From positions 1 to 39,404 of IMG/VR virus record IMGVR_UViG_3300042350_000992: a stretch of DNA of 39,404 nt. One strand, written 5' to 3'. The DNA is from a virus. Below are positions 124-39,404 of the stretch, piece by piece. Position 1 is the first letter of the stretch, and each line of letters begins with the position of its first letter. A model generated the notes under the pieces. That model did no database searches. It had not been told where the DNA came from and saw only the letters and a program-made list of their open reading frames with translations. The position numbers and the translations under genes are program-made.

Positions 124-2016
124 TTATCCGTATTGTTCGGCCCATTGTTCTGAAAAAGCCTCATCTAGGTTGATTGTATATCTTTGCGCTGACTGTGCAC
201 GGGTTGTCCACCTATTAGATGAAAACTTCTGCAAGTGATTTGTTTGTTGCATAAACTCCCGTGCTCTAAGCACAGCAAACCATAGTGCCATAACACAGTC
301 GGTTTTACCTCTAGTGCTTGGCTTCCAGGTAATCAACTGCTGAGTAAGAGACTTAAGTCCTTCAGAGTCAGTAGTAGATGGAAGTTCAATCATATTGTTC
401 TTCTGGAACTTTTCTTCTCGCATGGTTCCAAACAGGGTAGACATAGATGCTACACCAAATGCTGCGTCCCACTTATTTTTGTTAGTAACATGAGATTCAA
501 GTCTTACACCATACATACCAAGCCATTGCCGCAAGTCATCATCTAATGAGTATGCTTTCTGGTGGGCGTTAATTTCTACTCTAAATTCTTGTGGCTTGTA
601 TTTCAATACAAGTTCTTCTATCGTACTTCTAATCTTTTGCGGGTTCGGTTCACCCATGTTAATACAATCTAAAACATATATTCTAGAATCTATTCTGTTA
701 TAAGTAACTACTACGAAGGCTGCATGAGCCTTGTCTCCCATCGCTGGGTCGAATCCAATAATTGTGTAACCTTCAACTGCAGTCGGATGTCCCACCGCCC
801 CTTGGCGCAATGGACCTTTTCTGCGTTGCCCGTTGGTACTGCCTTGCACCAAAGCGGGTGGGAAGATGGAATCTTCTTCGACATCCTCCTGCTGATAAAC
901 TAAAGCCCATGTTGACGGTGTTACTTCACTACGTCTTTTCTTTAATGCTATCCCATCCCATTTCGGGAAGAGCCCCTCTTCGTCAGGTACGTCAGAATCC
1001 CCATCCCACGGGAGGTCCGACTTAGGCCAGAGCGTCTTCCAGTCTTTAGGGTCTTCTGAATATTCCAAAACAGCAGGCATGCCCATATAAGTAAAAGGGC
1101 TTTTACCACCAGACCAGTGTTTGGTTTCACGGAGTTCTTTATAGAAGTCTTGCGCTGCAATTCGTGTCCCTACGATTAGTAACTTGCCATTCTTACCCAG
1201 ACGGGTAATAACTTCTTTTTGTAACCAGTTGATTTGCTTTTCCCACTCATGGGCGTTGGCTGTAGTTATACAGTCATCAAGTATGATGAGGTCAGCACGT
1301 GCTCCATAAATCTGCCCACCCATACCAAGCGCCTGGATGGTGGGGTCTTTCTCTGATGAATTTCGTGCATCGCTCCCAAGATAAACGGTGTCAACTCGCC
1401 AAGTGTCTGAATCCTCTTTCCAACCACCTTCGGGGCCAAAAGTTGTTTGCAACTTTAACCAGCGTGGATGGGAGAGTCTCTGCTTGATTGCGTACACGAA
1501 CTCACGTGCTTTGACTAACGTTTTTGAAACCACAATTATGCGGACATTAGGATTGAGGGCGATGCGATATGTGGAGTAGTTTACGGTGACCACCGTACTC
1601 TTGGCGTGCTCAGGTGGCACGTTAACCAATAGACGGGTTGGGTCGTTCTTTTCGTAAACCATACTAGGGTGGAGCCATGAAGGCTCCCTATCTTCTAGTA
1701 AGTCAATCCAATCTTGATGGTGTGGAAACAATCTTTGATTTAAAAAAATTTGCGAGAACTGAGGGAAGTCTATTTCTTCCTTGGGGATACCTAGGGCGGC
1801 AAGGGAAGCATCCTTTGCGGTTGCCTTGGCCTCTGTTAAGTCGGCAGCAAACTTCTTATCCCTGAGGCACCAGATTCTTACTGTGTCAGGTTTCTTGCCA
1901 CACATTTCCATGGCTTTGTGAACAGAGTGGCCTTCGGCCACTAGGGCTAAAACCTTAGCCTTTGCTCCTACCATAGCCAAAGATTGGGGGTTGTTTCCCC
2001 CTTTTGTAAATGTCAT
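124..2016 (-). CDS. terL: Terminase large subunit with N-terminal HTH
   Basis: This is the packaging ATPase and nuclease that cuts concatemeric DNA and pumps it into the prohead through the portal. The 630 residues show a Walker A variant PPEHAKST at 134-141, a Walker B LIILDD at 243-248 and a motif III-like LLIVGTR at 279-285. The RNase H-fold nuclease has acidic residues at D423 (GFDPAMGD), E481 and D573. Residues 20-70 form an extra domain with the pattern of small-terminase helix-turn-helix regions (AEGHSVHKAMEMCGKKPDTV, then RDKKFAADL). No separate small terminase gene is visible, so the DNA-recognition part may be fused here. The start ATG at 2016 follows a GGGACAGGA stretch. The gene diverges from the early genes. 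Confidence 0.93.
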   Translation of the reverse strand: MTFTKGGNNPQSLAMVGAKAKVLALVAEGHSVHKAMEMCGKKPDTVRIWCLRDKKFAADLTEAKATAKDASLAALGIPKEEIDFPQFSQIFLNQRLFPHHQDWIDLLEDREPSWLHPSMVYEKNDPTRLLVNVPPEHAKSTVVTVNYSTYRIALNPNVRIIVVSKTLVKAREFVYAIKQRLSHPRWLKLQTTFGPEGGWKEDSDTWRVDTVYLGSDARNSSEKDPTIQALGMGGQIYGARADLIILDDCITTANAHEWEKQINWLQKEVITRLGKNGKLLIVGTRIAAQDFYKELRETKHWSGGKSPFTYMGMPAVLEYSEDPKDWKTLWPKSDLPWDGDSDVPDEEGLFPKWDGIALKKRRSEVTPSTWALVYQQEDVEEDSIFPPALVQGSTNGQRRKGPLRQGAVGHPTAVEGYTIIGFDPAMGDKAHAAFVVVTYNRIDSRIYVLDCINMGEPNPQKIRSTIEELVLKYKPQEFRVEINAHQKAYSLDDDLRQWLGMYGVRLESHVTNKNKWDAAFGVASMSTLFGTMREEKFQKNNMIELPSTTDSEGLKSLTQQLITWKPSTRGKTDCVMALWFAVLRAREFMQQTNHLQKFSSNRWTTRAQSAQRYTINLDEAFSEQWAEQYG

Positions 2017-27082: not shown

Positions 27083-28288
27083 CTAAAGAGCAGCGATTGA
27101 TGAACCTGATTCGATTCGGTATAGCGCTTCTTCACGGTAGCGTGCAAAGCCAAGTACGCCGTACCAACCCATTGGGCGGTGACGCATTAACTTGTCAACT
27201 ACTGGTCCGATAACTACATGTGGCTCTTCAGCAACGGCTTGAGCCATTGCTTGCTGGCCTGCAATAATTGTGCGGAATACACGAGTTACAGGAGTTACGG
27301 TTACTACAGTTGTAGCAGTAACAGCAGCGGTATGAGCAACACTTACAGTGATTGTTGTTGTATCGCCAGATGTGGCAATAGAACTAATCTTTGCAGTAGT
27401 TGCAATACCTGTTCCTGAAATCTTGTCTCCAACCTCAGCACGTGCAGCGATAACTGAAGAAGAAGCAACACCAAAGGTAAACCCTGCTGATGTTCCTGCT
27501 ACTGTTACTGCTGTTGTTGCTAATGTTGCTTGGTCAGCACCATCCTTGGCTGAGTAAAGACGTGGTGATTCAATATAGAATGCACCTTCGTAGTTACCAA
27601 TTTCTCCAGCCCAGATGCGGTCCTGTGAAGAACCGTATTGGTTAGGAAGTAGCCAGCCTTGGCCAGATGATGACTCTGCACGTAGGTCATGGGATACCTC
27701 TGGGTGGATACCAGCCCAGTATAGTGAACCCTTGCGTGCTACAGCCTTAGCAGAACGTAACTTAGCGACAGCCCTACGGATGTCTGCTGAGTCAATTGTT
27801 GCTGCTGCTGTAACTGTTACTGTTGAGGTCGCTGTTGAACCTGAGAAAATCTTGTTATCTCCGCCACGCAATGTTTCCATTGCTACTGCGTCGATAGAAT
27901 CTGCTAGGTTGTAAGCAATAATGTTAGCGATTGCTGGGTCTACATCAGCAAGGCTGAATAGTTCCAACGCACGTGTTACCAACACTGAGTTACCGTACTC
28001 GTTAAGAGTAATAGAAACTGTTGTTGGTGTTGATAGTGCTACTGCATCTGGGTCAGTTGTCTCAGATAGAGTAGATGTCTTTTGTGCCAAGTCAACGTAC
28101 TTCTGTAGAACTACGGTTGAACCTGGGATTGATTGACGGGCAGGTGTTTTATCTGCGACTGAACGAATTAGTGGTTCAGAACGGAGAGCGAACTCCAGTA
28201 AGCGGTCATACGCTTGCTGAACAAGACCTGCACCACCGCTGGTACCGCCTAATGTAGCGGAGCCTATGCCTGTGTATGCATTTGCCAT
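27083..28288 (-). CDS. Major capsid protein
   Basis: 401 residues. The HK97-fold style seen in N4-gp56-type capsids is suggested by STVVLQKYVDLAQKTSTLSE, LNEYGNSVLVTRALELFSLA and, at the end, GPVVDKLMRHRPMGWYGVLG with FARYREEALYRIES. Residues about 252-334 are a Thr/Ser/Val-rich beta insertion (AGFTFGVASSSVIAARAEVG to TVVTVTP) between two capsid-type segments, probably a surface domain. Upstream is the scaffold gene. GGAGGTGA precedes the ATG and lies partly in a hairpin. It builds the shell. Confidence 0.85.
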   Translation of the reverse strand: MANAYTGIGSATLGGTSGGAGLVQQAYDRLLEFALRSEPLIRSVADKTPARQSIPGSTVVLQKYVDLAQKTSTLSETTDPDAVALSTPTTVSITLNEYGNSVLVTRALELFSLADVDPAIANIIAYNLADSIDAVAMETLRGGDNKIFSGSTATSTVTVTAAATIDSADIRRAVAKLRSAKAVARKGSLYWAGIHPEVSHDLRAESSSGQGWLLPNQYGSSQDRIWAGEIGNYEGAFYIESPRLYSAKDGADQATLATTAVTVAGTSAGFTFGVASSSVIAARAEVGDKISGTGIATTAKISSIATSGDTTTITVSVAHTAAVTATTVVTVTPVTRVFRTIIAGQQAMAQAVAEEPHVVIGPVVDKLMRHRPMGWYGVLGFARYREEALYRIESGSSIAAL

Positions 28289-28328: not shown

Positions 28329-28808
28329 TTATTGATTTGCTTGGAGGATAGCAAGAATTTCTTCTGCTGATTCGGCATTAGAGATTTTTGTTTGTAAATC
28401 CTCCGTGCGTTCAGGGGTTAACGCATTCTGAGTGACAATATCTTGCTGCCGTAAGGCTGCTCGATTACTCTCTTGCTCAGGATTTTTAGACTCTTCAACT
28501 TTTAATCCAAACAAATCAGCATTATCATCGAGCCAGTTATTCACTGTCTCTTCGTTAATATCTTCTAAGTCTTTCATAATAAGCCTTGCAGCCTTAGCGT
28601 TTACGCCCTTCTTTTCCAGGACTTCTTTAATAGTACGCTCACGCTGCACCTTGGATAATCCCTCAAGTTGCTCAGTGAGTTCCTTGATACGCTTCTCATC
28701 AGAGCGCTTGGCTTTACGTAACTTTTTAAGTAAGTCACTGCCATCACCCACATTTGTGTCGGTATCTAGGTCGTCTTCTTCTTCTTCATCCCAGTAGTTG
28801 TTGCTCAT
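28329..28808 (-). CDS. Probable scaffold protein
   Basis: 159 residues from the ATG at 28808. The acidic N-terminus (DEEEEDDLDTD) is followed by a basic/acidic coiled coil (about 20-60: LLKKLRKAKRSDEKRIKELT) and helical C-terminus (ESAEEILAILQAN). Size, charge and position just upstream of the capsid gene fit scaffold proteins that guide prohead assembly. The open frame extends upstream to 28904, but that part has no coding look. Ribosome site is a weak GGTGG. Confidence 0.75.
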   Translation of the reverse strand: MSNNYWDEEEEDDLDTDTNVGDGSDLLKKLRKAKRSDEKRIKELTEQLEGLSKVQRERTIKEVLEKKGVNAKAARLIMKDLEDINEETVNNWLDDNADLFGLKVEESKNPEQESNRAALRQQDIVTQNALTPERTEDLQTKISNAESAEEILAILQANQ

Positions 28809-28882
28809 AGCAACCACCCACCCTTCTATTCGTTGATTAGTCGCAAGCCTCAAGTCAATTCGGGGAAATTGGTTGGCTCTTG

Positions 28883-28915
28883 CTACCAGACTTATACACC
28901 TCACGGGGCTGGTAG
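28883..28915 (-). other. Leader hairpin upstream of scaffold gene
   Basis: CTACCAG (28883-28889) and CTGGTAG (28909-28915) form a perfect 7-bp stem in the 126-base gap between the LysM gene and the scaffold gene. The gap could hold a promoter or processing site for the scaffold-capsid transcript. No clear -35/-10 pair is seen. Confidence 0.45.
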
Positions 28916-28934: not shown

Positions 28935-30347
28935 TTAGAACTGACCTGCTGAGGAACCTCTACGCAAGTATGTAGTTGACAGTCCTGCTGCACCTACGCC
29001 TGATGAACCGCTAAATGTTCCTATTTCTTTTTCTGCTAACTGTGTACGCTTACGCTGAGCAGAGGCAAGTCCTTTAAATACTTCTTCTTCTGCAACCTGT
29101 TGGTTGTAATTAATTTTATCTTCATCATAAATTTGAGATAACTTAGTAGTAGTAGGAAGTATGTCTGAAATAGTAGAGTATCCTCTACGTGCTGTGGCTA
29201 GGTCTACGCCAAATTTAGCCAATGATTCTGCGCTAGTCATACTAGTTGTAAGCCCACCCTGCGCTAATGCTGCGCTACCAATCTCTGCTGCAGTTACCTT
29301 TTCTTGTAATCTAGGTAAATTTTCTTTTGGACTTAAAAAGTAACTAACTAACTCTGTATCTGTAATTTTATAAAAATCACGTAGAGTTTTTTTAACTAAT
29401 GGGTCTGCATTCTCAACACGATTAACTACAGTAGATACTCTGTCTTTAAACTCAACAGGGGATATATCTCCACCAATAATATTAGCCATTGCAGCCTGTC
29501 GTGTTTTTTTATCTGTACCTAATAAGGCTTGTTGCCCATATGCACGAAGTGTTTCTGAGTAACTATCCTCAAGGGCTAGATACTCTCCTTCTGTTAATGC
29601 ATTAAGGCCAGCAGCAGTTCTTGTTGTGTTCCCAGCAAAACGTGTTTGATATGTTTTGTTTTGACGCAATTCAATAATTGCTTCATTTGAAGTTAATCCT
29701 TGTTTCATGTATCCAGCAATAACTGGAGCCAAATCATCTAATCCGTATAAAGCAAAAGTTGAATTAAGTAATGCAAAAGCATCTCTAGTATCTTTGCTTA
29801 TTTCAGAGCCTGCTCCACCCGCTCCAGCCGCTCCGCCTACTTCAGGTTTCTTAGGGCTACTAGCGTCTATCTTTGCTTGGATTGCAGCATTAATTGCTAG
29901 ACCTTGTTCAGCACCAGTTTTACCAGCAATTGCTGCTGCGTACTCTGCATCAGTTAAACTTGTTACTGGATTAAAAGTATCTCCATAATAACCAGCAGCA
30001 GATACACCACCTCTTGCTTCAATTTCTGCCTTAGTTGCTACACCAGCAGCAATAGCAGCAGCCTCTGCTGCGGGATTGCGAACAAATCCTGGCGGAGTAT
30101 TAGCGGCTCCTGTAGTAGTACCACCTGTGGCTGCACCACCAGTTGCTGTACTACCTGTAGCAGTACCTGTGGCTGTAGAACCAGTTGCTGTTTGTTTTCC
30201 TGGGATTAAAAATGTTTGTCCAGGTTTAATTAAATTAGGATTAGTTATTTGTGGGTTTGCTGCTTGAATTGCTTTAACTGTTGTTTTATTAGCCTTAGCA
30301 ATTGCTGATAATGTATCGCCTTTTTTAACCTGTACAGTCTGTGCCAT
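28935..30347 (-). CDS. LysM-domain virion protein
   Basis: 470 residues. Residues 4-49 form a LysM domain (VQVKKGDTLSAIAKANKTTV, then PNLIKPGQTFLIPG), which binds peptidoglycan. A Thr/Gly/Ala-rich linker (50-85) follows, then about 380 residues of helical, Ala-rich sequence without a known motif. No signal peptide or catalytic motif is seen, so it is probably a virion protein that meets the wall during DNA entry. It overlaps the upstream gene by one base (TAATG). Confidence 0.7.
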   Translation of the reverse strand: MAQTVQVKKGDTLSAIAKANKTTVKAIQAANPQITNPNLIKPGQTFLIPGKQTATGSTATGTATGSTATGGAATGGTTTGAANTPPGFVRNPAAEAAAIAAGVATKAEIEARGGVSAAGYYGDTFNPVTSLTDAEYAAAIAGKTGAEQGLAINAAIQAKIDASSPKKPEVGGAAGAGGAGSEISKDTRDAFALLNSTFALYGLDDLAPVIAGYMKQGLTSNEAIIELRQNKTYQTRFAGNTTRTAAGLNALTEGEYLALEDSYSETLRAYGQQALLGTDKKTRQAAMANIIGGDISPVEFKDRVSTVVNRVENADPLVKKTLRDFYKITDTELVSYFLSPKENLPRLQEKVTAAEIGSAALAQGGLTTSMTSAESLAKFGVDLATARRGYSTISDILPTTTKLSQIYDEDKINYNQQVAEEEVFKGLASAQRKRTQLAEKEIGTFSGSSGVGAAGLSTTYLRRGSSAGQF

Positions 30348-31591
30348 TAGCCTACCACTCCAAACATTCTAAGAATATCATTAGCATATCCTGCTGCTTC
30401 ATCTCTAGCATTCTTAGTCTTGCCCCATTCTGGTTTATTACGAAGTAACTTCTCAAACTCTGTAGTAGACATAACTCCAGGCTTACCATTGTTTCTTAGT
30501 GCTACTTGAATATCTTTATCAAACGCATCTAAAGATTCTGATGGTACTTCTAAAACTTGAGACTTTGTATTAGCAAACTGAGTTGCTAAATTTTTAATAC
30601 TAATTCCATTATCAATAGAATCACCTAGATTTGTATAGAAACTCTTAGCAAGATTACGAATCTTTTGTTGTTGCTGCTCTAGTTTACCAGTAGATAAACT
30701 GCCACCTGTCCTAAGCCCACCAAGCACATCATCAAGGGCTTCCTGTGTACTTAACTTAATACCATAATTAGCAGCATAACTCTTTAAGGATGAAATGCTT
30801 TGGGCTATAGAACCTGTACCAGAAGCAATGGCTTCTAAGGAAGTACCACGAACTGATGGCTTAATAGTATCTGCCATTATACGTGCATAATCTTCTTCGT
30901 TTAATAAAGAACCAGACTCAATTAATTTACCGCCAACTGTTTTTTGTTTAACAACAGCCTTCTTCATTTCTGCACTTACACTATCAAAGAAAGTTTTTCT
31001 TTCAGCAGGTGTCGCTTCACGCCCAAGCATATCTACTGTAAAGGCATCAATTAATTGATTAGCATCTTGCTTAGTTATTTCTTGCCCACGTTGTGTTGGC
31101 CCACCACCACCATAACTAGGTTGAGAATTAAGCCATGTATTAAAGGTAGTTAACTCACCACTTGCATTAGGATTAAATAAAAGGGCTTCTATAATCTCTT
31201 TACTTTGATTATTAGAAGCATCTAATATAGCATCGCTAAGTCCAGCATCTGATTTTGTATTATAATCTTTTTCTGTTAAGTAACCTTTGCGATATAAACC
31301 AGTACGCAATGCCTCTATATTACCGCCAGCATCTTTTTTAACTTCACGAATAATTTGATTATAGTCAGCAAAAGTAAAGTTTTTACCATCGGGTGTTATA
31401 TATAAGAAACGTTGATAAGCAGCACCGTCTTGACCAGCAACAGTAATAATACGCTTAGTGCCAGTTCTATCCCAACCAATTTCTAATTGATTTTCGGCAC
31501 CTTCGGCAAAATAGTTTTTAATTGTAGTTGCATTAGATGACCCAGGAGCACCGTAAACATTTAATGTTTCTGCCAATTTATCTACCCTCAA
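30347..31591 (-). CDS. Probable internal virion protein
   Basis: 414 residues, mostly helical, with ITPDGKNFTFADYNQIIREV near 85-104 and MLGREATPAERKTFFDSVSA at about 190-209. The end (EFEKLLRNKPEWGKTKNARD) is basic. It sits between the 1754-residue protein and the LysM protein, a set typical of ejected internal proteins in short-tailed phages. No enzyme motif recognised. It overlaps the upstream gene by 14 bases. Confidence 0.55.
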   Translation of the reverse strand: MRVDKLAETLNVYGAPGSSNATTIKNYFAEGAENQLEIGWDRTGTKRIITVAGQDGAAYQRFLYITPDGKNFTFADYNQIIREVKKDAGGNIEALRTGLYRKGYLTEKDYNTKSDAGLSDAILDASNNQSKEIIEALLFNPNASGELTTFNTWLNSQPSYGGGGPTQRGQEITKQDANQLIDAFTVDMLGREATPAERKTFFDSVSAEMKKAVVKQKTVGGKLIESGSLLNEEDYARIMADTIKPSVRGTSLEAIASGTGSIAQSISSLKSYAANYGIKLSTQEALDDVLGGLRTGGSLSTGKLEQQQQKIRNLAKSFYTNLGDSIDNGISIKNLATQFANTKSQVLEVPSESLDAFDKDIQVALRNNGKPGVMSTTEFEKLLRNKPEWGKTKNARDEAAGYANDILRMFGVVG

Positions 31592-34500
31592 TTCCTGCTA
31601 TAGTTGATTCTCTAGAATAGTAGTTAAGCAAGCCAGTAAATATAATTCTGGTTGCTTCTTTTACTTCTGGACTTGTTTGGCTAAGTTCTTTTAATATGTT
31701 AAGAACTTGTTCTTTTCTTGTTGATTTTAAATTACTAAAATCAAAACGTTTAGAAAGTCTTTCATCTTCTGCAAGAGTTAAAAAGTCTGAAACTTGACGG
31801 ACTGCAAGATTCATTGATGACCTTGTCTTCTTATCAATAGGAGAGTTAGGGTCCGCAACTGCATCCGCAAGGGTTTTAAACATAACCTTTAGATTTCCTC
31901 TATTGTCTCCCTTACCGCCAATTTCAGCATCAAGGTATGGGTTAGATATTAAAAGAGCGGTGCGTTCTTGTGAAGCCTTATCAATTAATTGTCGTCTATC
32001 TCCATAAACTGATTTTTTCTTTAAGGCTTCGTTTAGTGTATCTTCAATAGCAAAGTATCTTTGCTTATCCTCTGCTACCTGCACGCTAGTTAAGTAATCT
32101 TCAAACTCTGGAATATCTACTAAGCCTTCAGATTGCATCCAAGCATATATGTCTGGATTATATTCGCCAGACTTTGGTGCAAATAAATAACCTATTTCTT
32201 TGTAGGTATCAATAAACTTTTTATTTTTAATAGACCAATTTTTTACTTCACTGGTAGTAGCAATAAGAACTTTAAATTCTTTGGTATTGCGTGGTACTAA
32301 ATATATTACTTTTCCTGGATTTTTACCAACCCATGTAGCAACGGCTAAGTCAAATACATCTATGTCTTCATTTTCAACGTTGCGATTTAACGCATTGTAT
32401 ACATCCCAAAAAGATGATTTCCAAGTAGTAATACCAGTCTTCTTTAAAAATCCTGGTAATCCTTGAGAGTCACGTAAGGTTGGTTGGCCTGGAGATATTT
32501 GTCCAAGCATGTTACGTGCAACAACAATACTATTTGTTGAAATTTTAAGTTTAGAAATATATTTTGCACGCTCTTCTGTAGTTGCATCTTCTGGCAACCC
32601 ATTACCAAATGCTTGTGCATGAGCAATTGCCTGCAACATTGCAGTTCCCTTTTGCCTATCTAACTCAGTAGACAAAAGAGTAGAAAGTATGCTGTCACCA
32701 AACATAGGTAACAAAGCACTTCGCAATGTCATTCTATCGCCAAACTGACCTAGTGCTATTGAGTCAAATGTTTCAGCAATTTTAGTAGTTGATGGTTGTA
32801 TCTCATCCTTAAGCACGCTTGGAACAAGTGGTAACTCTCTTAGAAGTGCTCTGCTAACTACAACAGCAACAGATGCTAAAGGTCCAGCCAGTGCTGGTTG
32901 TCCTGCATCAGGTGAAAATGATGGGTTTGTTAATCTTAACTTAAGAGTAAACTCATTAAATGTTGGAATTTGCAATGTTTGGTTGCCAGTAAGCGTACGA
33001 AGTACTGGCTCTATTGCACCATTGATAATTGAATCTGTAGGAAAGACAATAAACTTATCACCCTTCTCATCTTCATAAACATCTCCAGATGCCTCAAGGC
33101 CTGTATGTAGTAGGCGAGTACGATATAAAGCCCGTAAAGGTTTCTTTGTATATAGACGCCAGACTCTACGATAAAAATCTTCAGTTGCTCTATAGAATCT
33201 ACCTACTGACCTAATAGAAATAGCAAAGTTGCTTCGAATAGATGGGTTATCTACAAACTCTAATAGTTCATCAGTAGCACGAGTAAGGGCTAACTGAGTA
33301 ACCTGTCTTTCAGCATGTTCTTTTCCACGTGCTTTAGCAATAGCAGTACTCAGTGTTGGATTTTCTTCAATTGCATTTTTAACATAACGCTCTTGAAATA
33401 CTTTTTCGTAAGGCTTTAAATCTTTAAGTGCTCTTTCTGTAAATAATAATAGAAAAGGATTACGATTAAACCCAGTTACGGTTGCATCCATAACATCCAT
33501 TGTCCAGTTTTGCCACTTTGAATAAAGGTAACCAATTCCTTCGCCCTCTTCAAATACCTTCATATCTTTTTCTGGACCAACATTATATAAACGTGTTTGT
33601 ACGTTTGTTGTTGGCTGATAACCTTGAGTTAAATCTTCAAATCTAGCAAAATCAATTTCAGCGGATGCTTTGCTCCAAGGGTCTTTAACTATCTTTGCAA
33701 CACCTTCAGCATTTGTTTCAATTGATTTTTTGGCTGCAGTAACTGCTTTAAATAATTTTTCATTGTAGTTAGTTGAACCGCCATGAAAAGTATTTCTCAT
33801 ATCCATTAGCATATTATCTACGTGGATACGGGCAATCTGTACATCTGAAATACCACGTTGACGATATAGTACTGTAGTACTAAACAAAGACAAAAATCCT
33901 TCTAACTTTGTTTTGCTCTCCATAATATAATCATCGTCAAAACCTTTTGGAACTCTTTCAACGCCTACATCTTTAAGAATACTATGACGTGCGTTAATAA
34001 AATCATCAGGTGTTTTTAATGCTTTGTATCTAAAGAAAGCATTAACTGGATTTACTACTGCACCTTCTGCAATTTTTTCACTGTTGTAAGAAAAACGAAT
34101 ATTCCAGTTATCGTAATGAGCAAGAGCAATTTGCTTTGTTGACATTTTATTAATATCTATAGCACGGTATGCTTTACCTAAAGCAAGACCTGCCTCATTG
34201 ACTGCTTTGGTTAAATTACTGCTAACAAAAACTGAATCCACATAATCAATATCAATTTTTCCAGTCATCATACTACGGGCAGCAACAGAGTTACCCATTG
34301 AATCAAGAATATTTGGACTGTATTTCATTAACCGAGTTAAAGTTTCTGAACTTATTGGACCATTTTTTCCTGTGTAAAGTTCCATAACTCTTAATAATGT
34401 TTCTTCTTTAATCGCCTGGTGAGCCACATCAGCAAGGGCTACTTCATATCCGTATTGTTTGGATAACTTAGCACGTACATCTTCTAAAATATTTAAACGG

Positions 34501-36842
34501 TCTTGGCTATTTAATTTTTTAGTTGGGTCTTTTGATGGAAATATTTTATAAAATCCACGCTTATACATACCCTGGGTTGTTTTAGAACCAGTGGTTGCTT
34601 CAAGTATTGTTCGGGCCTCACGACCACCAAATACAAAATTACGTAGGTCATTTGAATTTCCTGTAAGAGCATTAAAAACTGTTTCATCTATACTGCTACG
34701 CATTCCAAGACGTGGAAAAAGAGTATGGGTAACCCAAAAATCTAAAAAGAATTTTGAAAATTTATTTCTAGTAGCGCCGCCAATTACATTCATAAAATTT
34801 ATTTTTTCAGACAGTCTTGAACTTGCTGCTGTTTGATAAATTAAATCATATGGCAACGGAGCAATACTTTTTGCAACCTGTGATGGCTGAACAATTCCTT
34901 TAGATGCTTGAAAAAATGATTCGCCTTCACGCCTAATTAATGCTGGATGTAATACTCCAACTAGTTCAGTTGGTATTTGAGACTGGACTGTTGAAAACAT
35001 ACCAGTTTCATTAAAAGTAGCAGCAAGGATTTCATCTGCAACTTTTTGTCCATTAGGTGAGCCAAGCATTCCACTTTTTATCATAACTGCTGAATAAAGA
35101 TTACGAATCATTGTAAGTTGTATTTCTGGGCTTTCTTTTAAGAATGCCTCTGTAAATGCATAGGCTAAATCTTTTTTACCTAAAGCAAGTATTGCTAAAT
35201 TTCTAACATCTGATTCTGTTTTAACTGCATCTTCACCATACAAAATACGACCAGGGCTGCGTGTAAGTCCAACAGATATTTTATTCATTGCTTTACGGGT
35301 TTTAGAAATATCTCCCTGTAATTCAATAATATCTTTTACTGCTGGATTAATTAAATTATCGCCATCATCGGCTACTTTTTTTAATACATCTAATACAGTA
35401 GATAATTCTTTTTCGCCCTTATCAATATAAGATGTTATATTTGCATTTTTAGAAGTTGGATTAAAGATAGCATCAATTACTTTACTTGAAGCAGAACTAA
35501 GACTTCTAAAATTCTTTGCTACTGGAATTCCATTTCTACGGAAATTTACAGTATCAACACGACCAGATAATAATAAGCCCATGTCTTCATGGTCCATAAA
35601 GAATTTCTTTGCAGATGATGCATCAAAGACTTCTTCTTTTGCTAATTTTTTAACAACATCAAGATTGGCCCAGTCTGGAAAGTCAATACGTATTTGCTTA
35701 TATGCAAGACCTTTTGCAACAGAGCCTTCTGCATCTGCATAATTTTTAACTGCTTTGCCTAGTTGCTCATCCCAAAGTTTAATAACATCGGCTTGTTTAA
35801 AAACAAAATCTACTCCACCTTCAACATCTCCACGCTCAGAAAGAAAAACAAATTGGTCAGCAAGTCTTTCGCCACGACCTTTAATTCCACCAAAACGACC
35901 AACTGCTTCTGGTATCCCAGCAACACCTTTACCAATAGCACGGCCACCTTTAATAATTGGTCCAACGCCAGTATAGGTAAGTGGGTCAATTGCTAATTGA
36001 TAAGTAGCATCTAAAGGACCAGACACTATATTAGCGGCAGCAACTTGACCTTTTTTTGTAGTTAAGTCAATACCAATTGTTTTAAGAAGTTTAACAGCCC
36101 AATAATTTTTATCAACATCTGGGTCGGCTTTTAACATACTGCCAACCTTATCTCTGCCTGGAGAAACTTGAGTAAAAACTTTAATTTCTTTTAATAACTC
36201 ATTAAATTGCTCAGGCTCGTCTCCCATAAATTGAATTGCCTTAAGCATACTTTCATCCGAATCACCATATAGGTCAATTGACTCCCCTGGAGTTCTGCCT
36301 TCTATAGTGCCACGTATTAAAGTTACTAATGCTTTACCGTGTTTAGTTTCGTACTCAGAAACTTTATCCCATCTCCAAGAATTTTTTCCATCAAAAGCCT
36401 CGCTAATAAGTTTTTTGCTAAAACGTGAACCTTTATCTTGTTCGGCTTGTTGCTCAACTTGATAAGGAGTATTTAAAGTTTTATAATATTTATCGGCTAC
36501 TGTAAATCCTGCAATAAGTGGACTAAAATAAAGTTTAGCAGTATTACTTAATGTTTGACCTGCTGCTTCAACTACTCTACCAAGTGTACTTAATTCAGGA
36601 GAAAATCGTTTTTCTTTAGAAAAAAGATATCTAATATTATCTTGAACCACTGGGTCAAATTCAAGAAATTCTTTACGCCCTGCTTCTTCGCTAAGTTGTA
36701 AAAGTCTTTTTGCTTCTTTTCTGGCATAGCCTAATTGGCTAAGTTGTTTTTGTTGAGAAAGCGGCAAGCCAGCATCAATTGCTGCTTTATAAATATTAGG
36801 GCTTAGTTCACCTACAACAGGGTCTAATTTTATTTCGGCCAT
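31578..36842 (-). CDS. Giant internal virion protein (ejection protein)
   Basis: 1754 residues, the largest gene. It is mainly helical with repeated Lys/Glu-rich stretches and a few moderately hydrophobic segments (about 105-125 LYFSPLIAGFTVADKYYKTL; a Pro/Ala/Val-rich one near 1340). I see no Walker, protease or lysozyme motif. Its place between portal-side genes and scaffold/capsid, and the lack of a long tape-measure gene among the tail genes, fits a podovirus internal protein released into the cell with the DNA. A tape-measure protein is the other possibility. Start overlaps the 36842 gene stop (TAATG). Confidence 0.6.
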   Translation of the reverse strand: MAEIKLDPVVGELSPNIYKAAIDAGLPLSQQKQLSQLGYARKEAKRLLQLSEEAGRKEFLEFDPVVQDNIRYLFSKEKRFSPELSTLGRVVEAAGQTLSNTAKLYFSPLIAGFTVADKYYKTLNTPYQVEQQAEQDKGSRFSKKLISEAFDGKNSWRWDKVSEYETKHGKALVTLIRGTIEGRTPGESIDLYGDSDESMLKAIQFMGDEPEQFNELLKEIKVFTQVSPGRDKVGSMLKADPDVDKNYWAVKLLKTIGIDLTTKKGQVAAANIVSGPLDATYQLAIDPLTYTGVGPIIKGGRAIGKGVAGIPEAVGRFGGIKGRGERLADQFVFLSERGDVEGGVDFVFKQADVIKLWDEQLGKAVKNYADAEGSVAKGLAYKQIRIDFPDWANLDVVKKLAKEEVFDASSAKKFFMDHEDMGLLLSGRVDTVNFRRNGIPVAKNFRSLSSASSKVIDAIFNPTSKNANITSYIDKGEKELSTVLDVLKKVADDGDNLINPAVKDIIELQGDISKTRKAMNKISVGLTRSPGRILYGEDAVKTESDVRNLAILALGKKDLAYAFTEAFLKESPEIQLTMIRNLYSAVMIKSGMLGSPNGQKVADEILAATFNETGMFSTVQSQIPTELVGVLHPALIRREGESFFQASKGIVQPSQVAKSIAPLPYDLIYQTAASSRLSEKINFMNVIGGATRNKFSKFFLDFWVTHTLFPRLGMRSSIDETVFNALTGNSNDLRNFVFGGREARTILEATTGSKTTQGMYKRGFYKIFPSKDPTKKLNSQDRLNILEDVRAKLSKQYGYEVALADVAHQAIKEETLLRVMELYTGKNGPISSETLTRLMKYSPNILDSMGNSVAARSMMTGKIDIDYVDSVFVSSNLTKAVNEAGLALGKAYRAIDINKMSTKQIALAHYDNWNIRFSYNSEKIAEGAVVNPVNAFFRYKALKTPDDFINARHSILKDVGVERVPKGFDDDYIMESKTKLEGFLSLFSTTVLYRQRGISDVQIARIHVDNMLMDMRNTFHGGSTNYNEKLFKAVTAAKKSIETNAEGVAKIVKDPWSKASAEIDFARFEDLTQGYQPTTNVQTRLYNVGPEKDMKVFEEGEGIGYLYSKWQNWTMDVMDATVTGFNRNPFLLLFTERALKDLKPYEKVFQERYVKNAIEENPTLSTAIAKARGKEHAERQVTQLALTRATDELLEFVDNPSIRSNFAISIRSVGRFYRATEDFYRRVWRLYTKKPLRALYRTRLLHTGLEASGDVYEDEKGDKFIVFPTDSIINGAIEPVLRTLTGNQTLQIPTFNEFTLKLRLTNPSFSPDAGQPALAGPLASVAVVVSRALLRELPLVPSVLKDEIQPSTTKIAETFDSIALGQFGDRMTLRSALLPMFGDSILSTLLSTELDRQKGTAMLQAIAHAQAFGNGLPEDATTEERAKYISKLKISTNSIVVARNMLGQISPGQPTLRDSQGLPGFLKKTGITTWKSSFWDVYNALNRNVENEDIDVFDLAVATWVGKNPGKVIYLVPRNTKEFKVLIATTSEVKNWSIKNKKFIDTYKEIGYLFAPKSGEYNPDIYAWMQSEGLVDIPEFEDYLTSVQVAEDKQRYFAIEDTLNEALKKKSVYGDRRQLIDKASQERTALLISNPYLDAEIGGKGDNRGNLKVMFKTLADAVADPNSPIDKKTRSSMNLAVRQVSDFLTLAEDERLSKRFDFSNLKSTRKEQVLNILKELSQTSPEVKEATRIIFTGLLNYYSRESTIAGIEGR

Positions 36843-37261
36843 TAATATCCAGCATCATCTAGCATGCGAAATAACATTTCAGAATCGCCTGAAACATCAT
36901 ACTGTGCAAGGCCTCTAGCAATTTCTTTTATTGTTGGCTCTTGATTTGGTAATCTTCCAAGCGCAATCGAACCAGGGCCATCCCCAATATCTATACCACT
37001 AGTAATGCTTTCATTTTTACGAGATGTAGGAGCAAACAATGGTTGCAAATCTTCTAATGTATTTTGAGGAATTGGATTACCAGCCATAGGCGCTGCTACT
37101 TGTTGGTCGTAGGTTGCTTGTCCTTGTCCGTATGGTAATCCTGACATGTAGGTTGCGGCTTGTGTTGGACCCCCGTCAGTGCGTTGACTAAGAGCGCCAG
37201 GGCCTGATACTGGGGCTGGGTTATTCGGTTTTCTATATCCACCTTGCTCCATCATTGACAT
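36842..37261 (-). CDS. Hypothetical Pro/Gly-rich protein
   Basis: 139 residues. The N-terminal 90 residues are rich in Pro, Gly and Gln (PNNPAPVSGPGALSQRTDGG, GLPYGQGQATYDQQVAAPMA), likely disordered. The end (EIARGLAQYDVSGDSEMLFR) is helical. It lies between the Ntn hydrolase and the giant internal protein, so it may be a virion or maturation cofactor. AGGAGATATT precedes the ATG. Confidence 0.55.
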   Translation of the reverse strand: MSMMEQGGYRKPNNPAPVSGPGALSQRTDGGPTQAATYMSGLPYGQGQATYDQQVAAPMAGNPIPQNTLEDLQPLFAPTSRKNESITSGIDIGDGPGSIALGRLPNQEPTIKEIARGLAQYDVSGDSEMLFRMLDDAGY

Positions 37262-37269
37262 AATATCTC

Positions 37270-37839
37270 CTACTTAGTAAATTGTGTTTTTATATGAACA
37301 GGTCCACCGCACCAAATATTATATTGAATTGCAATGTTTACTGCCTTCTTAGCAGCGCTTGATGCTTTTGCATGTGTCTTTGTTTCAAGTTCCATTGATG
37401 CTAATGCACCAAGGGCTAATCCCCCACCAGAACCAATTCCATATAAACTTTTATCATCTCGCATATATCCAAAGTCATCGGTAACTTGATATAACTTTCC
37501 ATTAAAACAAACTAATGCATCCCAACCAGTATCATCATCGCTTTTGGTTTTAGGTGCTGGTTCATAGCCTGCATCTGTTAATGTTTGTTTCATAGATGGT
37601 AATACTCTTATCATCATAAAACGGTCTGGGTCTTGCGTCTTAATTACTTTAGGCGGTTGCCATAAGTTGTTAAGAATATCTCCTGCTATAGCATCACCTG
37701 CTACTGCAATTAGATACTCACCAACTTTAACTATCTTGTCATAACCCTTTGCTACATAAGGTCTTTCGGTATATGTAGTCATTGAATCTGCTGCTAAGAC
37801 AGCCCAGCCATTACCCTGTATGCCGACTATTACTGTCAT
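37270..37839 (-). CDS. Proteasome-beta/HslV-like Ntn hydrolase, candidate head protease
   Basis: About 189 residues. I prefer the second of two adjacent ATGs (37839), since it leaves Met-Thr and removal of Met exposes a catalytic Thr1. TVIVGIQGNGWAVLAAD aligns with the HslV/proteasome start; Asp17 and a Lys at position 34 (DKIVKV) take the usual Asp17/Lys33 places. YGIGSGGGLALGALA gives the GSG turn with the Ser129 equivalent. YNIWCGG has Asn and Cys where proteasomes have Asp166 and Ser169. The usual herpes-type or ClpP-type prohead protease is absent, and the gene lies next to portal. A role in prohead maturation is my inference. Its start is 12 bases from the portal stop. Confidence 0.8.
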   Translation of the reverse strand: MTVIVGIQGNGWAVLAADSMTTYTERPYVAKGYDKIVKVGEYLIAVAGDAIAGDILNNLWQPPKVIKTQDPDRFMMIRVLPSMKQTLTDAGYEPAPKTKSDDDTGWDALVCFNGKLYQVTDDFGYMRDDKSLYGIGSGGGLALGALASMELETKTHAKASSAAKKAVNIAIQYNIWCGGPVHIKTQFTK

Positions 37840-37854
37840 CATCCCCCGCTTAAG

Positions 37855-39404
37855 TTATCTTCTTACTACTGTCCTTGCACTAGCACTAGCCGTACCACCT
37901 GCACTTAAACTAGATAAAAGACTTTGTAGTCCTCCGCCTTGTTGTGGTGGTAGTGGTGAAGGTAAGCCTCCTGCTGGAGCCTCTGCGGGAGCAGGGGACG
38001 TTTGCTCAACCATTTGGGCACCAGCGGGAGGTAATTCTGGAGCAAAGATATCTTCAATCGCATCTTCAATCGAAATACCCTTTTGACGGGCTTTGATTAC
38101 TTGTGCGATTTTCTTTACGATATCAGATGCGTCCCCGCCTGATGCTGCCATTTGTGGAATGGCTTGTGTGTATGCCTGTAGTGAACCTACTAAAGCATTA
38201 CGCATTTCCTCTACTTCAATCTTTTCTTGTTCTTGCGTTACGTTAATACCAAATGGTAGTTCACGCATAGCCATATCCTTAGAGATTAATTTACCACCAA
38301 GGGCTTGTAGCATAAAGATAAGTCCCTGTGCTGGGTTAAGACCAGCAAGCATTCCATAACGTACATCGGCTGTATAGTCACCCTTAATATCTTTTGAAGG
38401 TGTGTACTCTAAAGAGTACGGTGAGCCAGCATCTACGCCACGAATTGTTTTAACAAAATTAAATAGTGTCTCATCCATCTCGAAACAGACAGAGATAACA
38501 TCTTTAAGTGCAGAAGCAAAGATTGCTTGTGCTGATTTAACCTGTGTATCAAAGCCACCCATAAGCGCTTGAACGCCTTGTCCCGTGACTATTGATGCAT
38601 CTATGTTTCCAGTTCTTGATTCTGGATAACGTGTTCCAGTACGCAACTCATTAAGCAATACTTGCTGCTCAGTGAATGCACCTGGTGGGATATTTAAATC
38701 TACACGTCGTACTCCAGCAGGGGAGTTGGTGCGAATAATCGCATCTCCACCCAACTGTAGTTCTTGAACATCGCCTGGTACAACAATTGGTGCCTGTACA
38801 GATTTCTCTGCTGCTTCCATCGCAAGTAATGCGAACCTATTACGAAGCAGTTGGATACCTAGTACGTCATCAAATTGACCACGCATCTCGCCATCTAGTG
38901 ATGGACGCTTTGCTACTATCACTTGCATCTTACCAAGTGGGTTCTTGGCTTGAGATAAAACTAAATTATTCCGTGATGGAATAAATATTGTTGATTGCTC
39001 TTTATCGTAATAACGAACAATATCAATACGTGCATCTAGGTTCTGCTCATAACGGTCAGCGCCTAGTAGTTGAATCTCAAACTCAGGGTACTGTGCCACC
39101 AGTTCTGCGAGTGTTAGTGAGTATTTCTTTGCGAAGGCAATACAACGTCCGTAGCGGTCAAACTCTGGGTAAGCCCCAATCGGACTTTCTATTCGGATAC
39201 GTGGTAGCCCTGCTTCTTCGTCTAATTCAACAATGAATGGGACGAAACCAAATGTGATGTATTGGTCTGCACCTTGATACATCTGTACTTGTAAATCTGA
39301 ATTACTAAAATAATTTGTTGCAATACGTGTTCGCTTATCAGCAAAGACTCTTGCTCTATCTGATACCTGATTTGCTGCAGAACAATTTACTGCTGGCAGT
39401 GGAG
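37855..39404 (-). CDS. Portal protein, 5' end beyond window
   Basis: The frame is open to the right edge, 41 residues beyond the ATG at 39282, and that extension (ending VFADKRTRIATNYF before SNSDLQVQMYQGAD) looks coding, so the true start lies outside. The visible 516 residues include RYYDKEQSTIFIPSRNNLVL, AKRPSLDGEMRGQFDDVLGI, EKSVQAPIVVPGDVQELQLG and the ESRTGNIDASIVTGQGVQAL region, typical of portal rings. The tail end is Pro/Gly/Ser-rich. The portal is the dodecameric DNA gate at one capsid corner, docking the terminase. Confidence 0.82.
   Translation of the reverse strand, partial: PLPAVNCSAANQVSDRARVFADKRTRIATNYFSNSDLQVQMYQGADQYITFGFVPFIVELDEEAGLPRIRIESPIGAYPEFDRYGRCIAFAKKYSLTLAELVAQYPEFEIQLLGADRYEQNLDARIDIVRYYDKEQSTIFIPSRNNLVLSQAKNPLGKMQVIVAKRPSLDGEMRGQFDDVLGIQLLRNRFALLAMEAAEKSVQAPIVVPGDVQELQLGGDAIIRTNSPAGVRRVDLNIPPGAFTEQQVLLNELRTGTRYPESRTGNIDASIVTGQGVQALMGGFDTQVKSAQAIFASALKDVISVCFEMDETLFNFVKTIRGVDAGSPYSLEYTPSKDIKGDYTADVRYGMLAGLNPAQGLIFMLQALGGKLISKDMAMRELPFGINVTQEQEKIEVEEMRNALVGSLQAYTQAIPQMAASGGDASDIVKKIAQVIKARQKGISIEDAIEDIFAPELPPAGAQMVEQTSPAPAEAPAGGLPSPLPPQQGGGLQSLLSSLSAGGTASASARTVVRR

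Follow-up and report, generated by a model that had tools for sequence, protein, structure and literature searches.

Proteasome homologs encoded by phages have been described before, among them those named PPH, AAH and CPH (Fuchs et al., 2021; PMC8665760). That study reported no genomic contexts pointing to a specific function, did not find AAH in Actinobacteria-specific phages, and raised the possibility that several of the homologs work without an ATPase. The superfamily also includes connectase, a member that is able to ligate (PMC8665760). Prohead proteases of the S78 (HK97) type or the ClpP/S14 type usually follow the portal gene, but they differ from Ntn hydrolases in fold and nucleophile.

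Here we analyzed a stretch of DNA of 39,404 nucleotides from a probable freshwater actinobacterial virus (IMG/VR record IMGVR_UViG_3300042350_000992, positions 1 to 39,404; hereafter the window), in which an Ntn hydrolase gene takes the place after the portal gene. Phage proteasome homologs as such are already known; the new elements are an actinophage clade that holds two fixed positions and is mutually exclusive with a small protein, and a related system available as isolates.

Results

Family assignment and predicted structure

The features of the locus are listed in Table 1. The open reading frame scored 25.5 bits against the Pfam Proteasome model PF00227 (curated cut-off 22.4) and matched the PHROG profile phrog_1040, the 'peptidase HslV family', with E=1e-27 (E=6e-31 in a second run). 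Searching the PDB with the single sequence returned the beta-proteobacterial proteasome homolog BPH (5ovs, E=3e-4), and a profile built from 27 sequences returned BPH with E=5e-11 and HslV with E=7e-11. The protein is not an archaeal proteasome beta equivalog by the NCBIfam model (28.1 bits, cut-off 224).

Table 1. Positions of the Ntn hydrolase gene, its key codons and the surrounding phage genes in the window.
Feature	Position	Strand	Remarks
HslV/BPH-like Ntn hydrolase gene	37270..37842	minus (37842..37270)	ORF of 190 aa
Probable start, second ATG	37839	minus	Met-Thr..., 189 aa; Met-Thr start in complete homologs
Nucleophile Thr1 codon (Thr3 of ORF)	37834..37836	minus	invariant in all aligned homologs; in the model, on Thr1 of BPH/HslV/proteasome beta
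Asp17-equivalent codon	37786..37788	minus	invariant
Lys33-equivalent codon (Lys34 here)	37735..37737	minus	invariant
Gly47 codon (oxyanion hole)	37696..37698	minus	invariant in close clade and in A2
Asn173 codon, clade-specific replacement of Asp166	37318..37320	minus	Asp in several deeper relatives
Cys176 codon, clade-specific replacement of Ser169	37309..37311	minus	Thr in most deeper relatives
Terminase large subunit	124..2016	minus	phrog_38, E=4e-70; before portal if record is read as circle
Portal protein	37855..39404	minus	5' part past window end; phrog_104, E=3e-27; ~43% identical to Beephvirinae portals
139-aa protein	36842..37261	minus	phrog_8200, Beephvirinae gp7 family; far edge of variable slot
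Giant 1754-aa protein	31578..36842	minus	
470-aa protein	28935..30347	minus	between giant protein and scaffold
Probable scaffolding protein	28329..28904	minus	phrog_7813; family of Streptomyces phage Dennebes gp36, annotated as scaffolding
Major capsid protein, N4-gp56 family	27083..28288	minus	TIGR04387, 102.9 bits (cut-off 60); phrog_1357

An AlphaFold2 monomer model (25 input sequences, pLDDT 89.1, pTM 0.87) displayed the Ntn layers and two helix pairs, with no C-terminal helix beyond the last strand. For this model Foldseek ranked BPH first and HslV second, VIA-align gave Z values of 19-20 with BPH, HslV and proteasome beta, and model residue Thr2 superposed on Thr1 of all three. As judged by sequence and predicted structure, the ORF encodes an Ntn hydrolase of the HslV/BPH/proteasome-beta superfamily and combines the predicted Ntn fold with the N-terminal Thr, Asp17, Lys33 and Gly47 characteristic of the proteasome superfamily. 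A sequence-only reading of the window had proposed such an enzyme from the N-terminal Thr, Asp17, Lys33-equivalent and GSG turn; profile search and structure prediction bear out the gene and its family, and the ORF reads on the minus strand. In the BFVD, 41 viral predicted structures matched the model at E<=0.001, so proteasome-like proteins are widespread in phages.

Active site, start codon and selection

Among 81 close sequences, Thr1, Asp17, Lys34 (equivalent to Lys33) and Gly47 showed no variation, and the GSG turn is present and conserved. M1, T2, D18 and K35 were invariant in a 27-sequence alignment reaching down to 25% identity. Every homolog running complete starts with Met-Thr, including all 81 close relatives, which supports the previously suggested second ATG as the start. 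According to the methionine aminopeptidase rules, a Met-Thr start would expose Thr1 without the need of a propeptide. Pairwise dN/dS values of the gene (~0.02-0.16) indicate strong purifying selection on the protein. We rejected an inactive fold, which had been considered as a borrowed one, because the active site is invariant and dN/dS is low.

Two supporting residues had been noted as changed, Asp166 to Asn and Ser169 to Cys. Both changes are real and fixed in the close clade. In sister clades the Asp166 site carries Asp, Thr or Ser and rarely Asn, and the Ser169 site carries mostly Thr; among deeper relatives, Asp or Thr prevails at the first site and Thr or Ser at the second. The two replacements might be taken to mean that the protein is no protease in vivo but a ligase-like enzyme of the connectase type, some other enzyme acting on amide bonds or a scaffold without catalytic activity, and connectase does provide a ligating member of the superfamily (PMC8665760). 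We regard this as highly improbable: Thr1, Asp17, Lys33 and Gly47 are intact and invariant, the helical S3/S4 insertion typical of connectase is absent from the predicted secondary structure, and the Asp166 site varies in sister clades too.

Head genes and closest relatives

The record appears to be a near-complete circularly permuted genome, with the terminase gene at one end, a truncated portal gene at the other and a short piece missing between them. Read as a circle, the minus strand encodes in order the terminase, the portal, the Ntn protein, the 139-aa phrog_8200 protein, proteins of 1754, 414 and 470 aa, the scaffold and the coat. The portal stop codon lies 12 nt upstream of the Ntn ORF and the portal assignment is firm (Table 1), so the position directly after the portal gene was read correctly. 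A WhiB gene (PF02467) in the record indicates an actinobacterial host. Profile searches detected no S78 or ClpP-type protease in the window, nor did a classical prohead protease turn up when the larger late genes were scanned against PHROG, in agreement with the sequence-only reading.

Several neighboring proteins have features of their own. For the giant protein, neither Pfam nor PHROG gave a convincing match. Beephvirinae and records G001, G012, G013 and G015 encode counterparts of ~1610-1680 aa at the corresponding position, and the protein changes rapidly: in many loci with portals >80% identical, its identity is 23-46%. The coat protein is ~85 aa longer than in G001 and Beephvirinae, the extra part spanning approximately residues 255-335 and perhaps representing an inserted surface domain. 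The 470-aa protein has an endolysin/transglycosylase-like N-terminus and is perhaps a virion lysin.

Among cultured phages, OX376640 and OX376641 come closest in portal (77% identical) and coat (81% identical); they are the Planktophila isolates E7 and F5 (PMC10202952). For E7, portal and coat are 73-81% identical to those of the window. As far as its main text covers gene annotation, that paper counts some genes for host protein degradation among the annotated ones and does not name the Ntn gene. The two genomes (LanE43-AprE7 and LanE43-AprF5; our loci L088 and L252) are unannotated and were entered as 'Caudovirales sp. ct2KA10'. In both, an Ntn gene adjoins the portal gene as in the window, but the Ntn proteins are only ~31% identical despite the close flanking genes. 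Next nearest are the Streptomyces Beephvirinae (43-54% identical in portal and coat), which share the order terminase, portal, small genes, phrog_8200, giant protein, scaffold and coat. Profile searches revealed no Ntn gene in three complete Beephvirinae genomes and no S78 or ClpP-type protease in the cultured member Immanuel3.

The slot between portal and phrog_8200

We combined a portal-based scan (80 loci whose portals share 83-95% identity with that of E7) with a scan for E7-type Ntn genes. The Ntn gene was found in the slot at 79 loci and not at 16; the Ntn-less records are partly fragments, and a very divergent protease could lie elsewhere in them. All 13 Ntn-less loci in which the slot is covered encode an unrelated protein of 73-79 aa there. 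Of 92 informative portal-matched loci, 79 thus have the slot filled by a member of the Ntn family, and these members come from four deep clades, mostly ~30-40% identical to one another. This occupancy could reflect a selected late, head-linked role, or one linked to the virion. Across all loci, the Ntn gene and the small protein never occurred together (141 loci with the former, some of them overlapping, versus 13 with the latter). The small protein is conserved and has an acidic C-terminus (L147:11576-11800, L163:9928-10146 and 11 other loci); it gave no PHROG match above noise. In G001, a 37.5-kb record with a portal 75% and a coat 67% identical to those of the window, sequence, profile and PHROG searches found no Ntn gene anywhere.

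A second position in the early operon

Scanning for the close clade at >=60% identity yielded 122 loci. The Ntn gene follows the portal gene in 64 and lies in an early operon in 53, while the contig ends too soon in the remaining 5. At the 53 early loci it is the first gene and is accompanied by genes for a RecE/Cas4-like exonuclease, WhiB, DnaB, RusA and primase; those that were compared share 79-84% identity with the protein of the window. Three longer records of the early type carry a single Ntn gene each, in the early operon or, in one case, at the contig end. In these records the slot after the portal is taken by a protein of 69-70 aa that, on visual comparison, looks like Beephvirinae gp6, and phrog_8200, giant protein, scaffold and coat lie downstream of it.

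In a tree of the Ntn proteins the portal-slot members of the close clade form one group nested among the early-operon members, with moderate support and an unsure root. The gene likely moved from the early operon into the late slot. Locus L024 has a portal 97% but an Ntn protein only 80% identical to those of the window, and at L004 the silent-site difference to the window is 0.61 in the portal gene and 0.19 in the Ntn gene. On sequence comparison, the Ntn gene recombines independently of the portal gene. Homologous exchange via the conserved flanks would suffice for its replacement in place.

How can one enzyme be useful in both settings? It could be a threonine peptidase of the virion programme, made late and packaged, which either processes head or ejection proteins or is ejected against host proteins. 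If so, the sister phages would get the same effect by early expression. We consider this possible but unlikely. The enzyme might be packaged, enter the cell with the DNA and attack proteins of the host as infection begins, and this would reconcile its late-structural place in one set of phages with its early-operon place in the other. Such an early effector is rather improbable in our view, as there is no known packaging signal and its presence in virions is purely putative.

Ntn genes in other phages and in bacteria

In DSL-LC01 (before WhiB), D'Alembert, XacN1, Pitbull, AAS21 and MTATph1, the Ntn gene lies outside the head module. Pantoea phage AAS21 carries it in a nucleotide-metabolism operon and encodes, in addition, an S78 prohead protease that a profile search confirmed; in Arthrobacter phage Pitbull, where the Ntn protein is gp77, a distinct protein is likewise annotated as capsid maturation protease. 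This coexistence indicates that the Ntn family is no general substitute for prohead proteases. Scanning genome contigs with the close clade yielded no bacterial relatives. A plasmid search with a sister clade gave only weak matches (23-25% identity among the matches listed), mostly to rhizobial plasmids and two Streptomyces records.

The sequence-only reading had raised, from the gene position, the idea that the enzyme might be the capsid protease. In such a role it would cleave scaffold, coat or internal head proteins at assembly. The gene does lie between the portal and the other head genes, a classical prohead protease was not found in the record, and four deep Ntn clades share the portal slot. 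Yet relatives with closely similar portal and coat, such as G001, and the cultured Beephvirinae, with the same scaffold and coat families, do without the gene, other relatives carry it in the early operon, the coat is of the N4 type with a separate scaffold gene, AAS21 has an Ntn gene alongside a genuine prohead protease, and the gene is exchanged by recombination independently of the portal gene. A prohead protease defined by function is expected to be conserved with the head genes of its lineage, and here relatives whose head genes are homologous lack the gene, have another in its stead or carry it elsewhere. The inference of a capsid protease is therefore unsupported, and we judge this role quite improbable.

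Discussion

We think it probable, with moderate confidence, that the gene is a movable accessory one whose product is an HslV/BPH-type threonine peptidase, competent for catalysis, and not a dedicated capsid-maturation protease. Methionine aminopeptidase would remove Met1 to expose Thr1, and the subunits may form rings like those of HslV and BPH. Such a ring might clip unfolded or small proteins of host or phage during infection, or borrow a host ATPase. That the enzyme would be made together with structural genes in this phage is explained by the recombination-prone slot between portal and phrog_8200 in which its gene sits. Of the sequence-only reading, the family, fold, catalytic residues, Met-Thr start and position stand, while the inference of capsid maturation does not.

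A profile search found no AAA_2 (HslU/ClpX-type) ATPase in the record, although all control genomes matched; the search covers the phage only, and a host HslU is possible. With no HslU-type ATPase encoded, the Ntn enzyme would need none or borrow that of the host. Taken further, the protein could be a partner or competitor of the host degradation machine, using a host unfoldase or disturbing the host proteasome/Clp system. Besides the lack of an AAA_2 unfoldase in the phage record, the actinobacterial host is compatible with this idea (WhiB; E7 and F5 are presented as Planktophila phages in PMC10202952), but no docking motif was identified and we see little chance that it is correct.

A single Ntn clade with an intact active site thus occupies two fixed alternative positions, the portal slot and the early replication operon, and in the portal slot it is swapped with deep homologs or with an unrelated small protein. 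The two addresses, the exchange in the slot and the intact active site together argue for a selected accessory role in infection. This function is testable, as isolates of the related phages E7 and F5 exist together with their cultured host LanE-43; these phages infect actinobacteria that are abundant in fresh water, and a homolog occupies the corresponding slot in their genomes.

Among characterized proteins, BPH (5ovs, 5ovt, 5ovu) is the best match by Foldseek and by full-length profile. Thr1, Asp17 and Lys align and both proteins are compact subunits, but identity is ~20% and the VIA-align Z value of 19.6 is equaled by other superfamily members. HslV (ClpQ), the peptidase of HslUV, resembles the phage protein in fold, Met-Thr start, GSG region and compact C-terminus. 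It differs in that the NCBIfam HslV models score the phage protein at 22.4 and 22.8 bits, far under their cut-offs of 157.75 and 137, which sets it apart from HslV proper, and in that the phage record lacks an HslU-type ATPase. PPH comprises ~140 aa and is missing helix H2, whereas the phage protein has 189 aa and both helices are predicted (residues 50-58 and 71-89), placing it outside PPH (Fuchs et al., 2021; PMC8665760). With AAH, CPH and PPH it shares the lack of a C-terminal extension (PMC8665760). Within phrog_1040, a broad family that also includes the proteins of E7, Pitbull and AAS21, the more distant annotated phages examined carry the gene outside the head module, unlike the phage described here.
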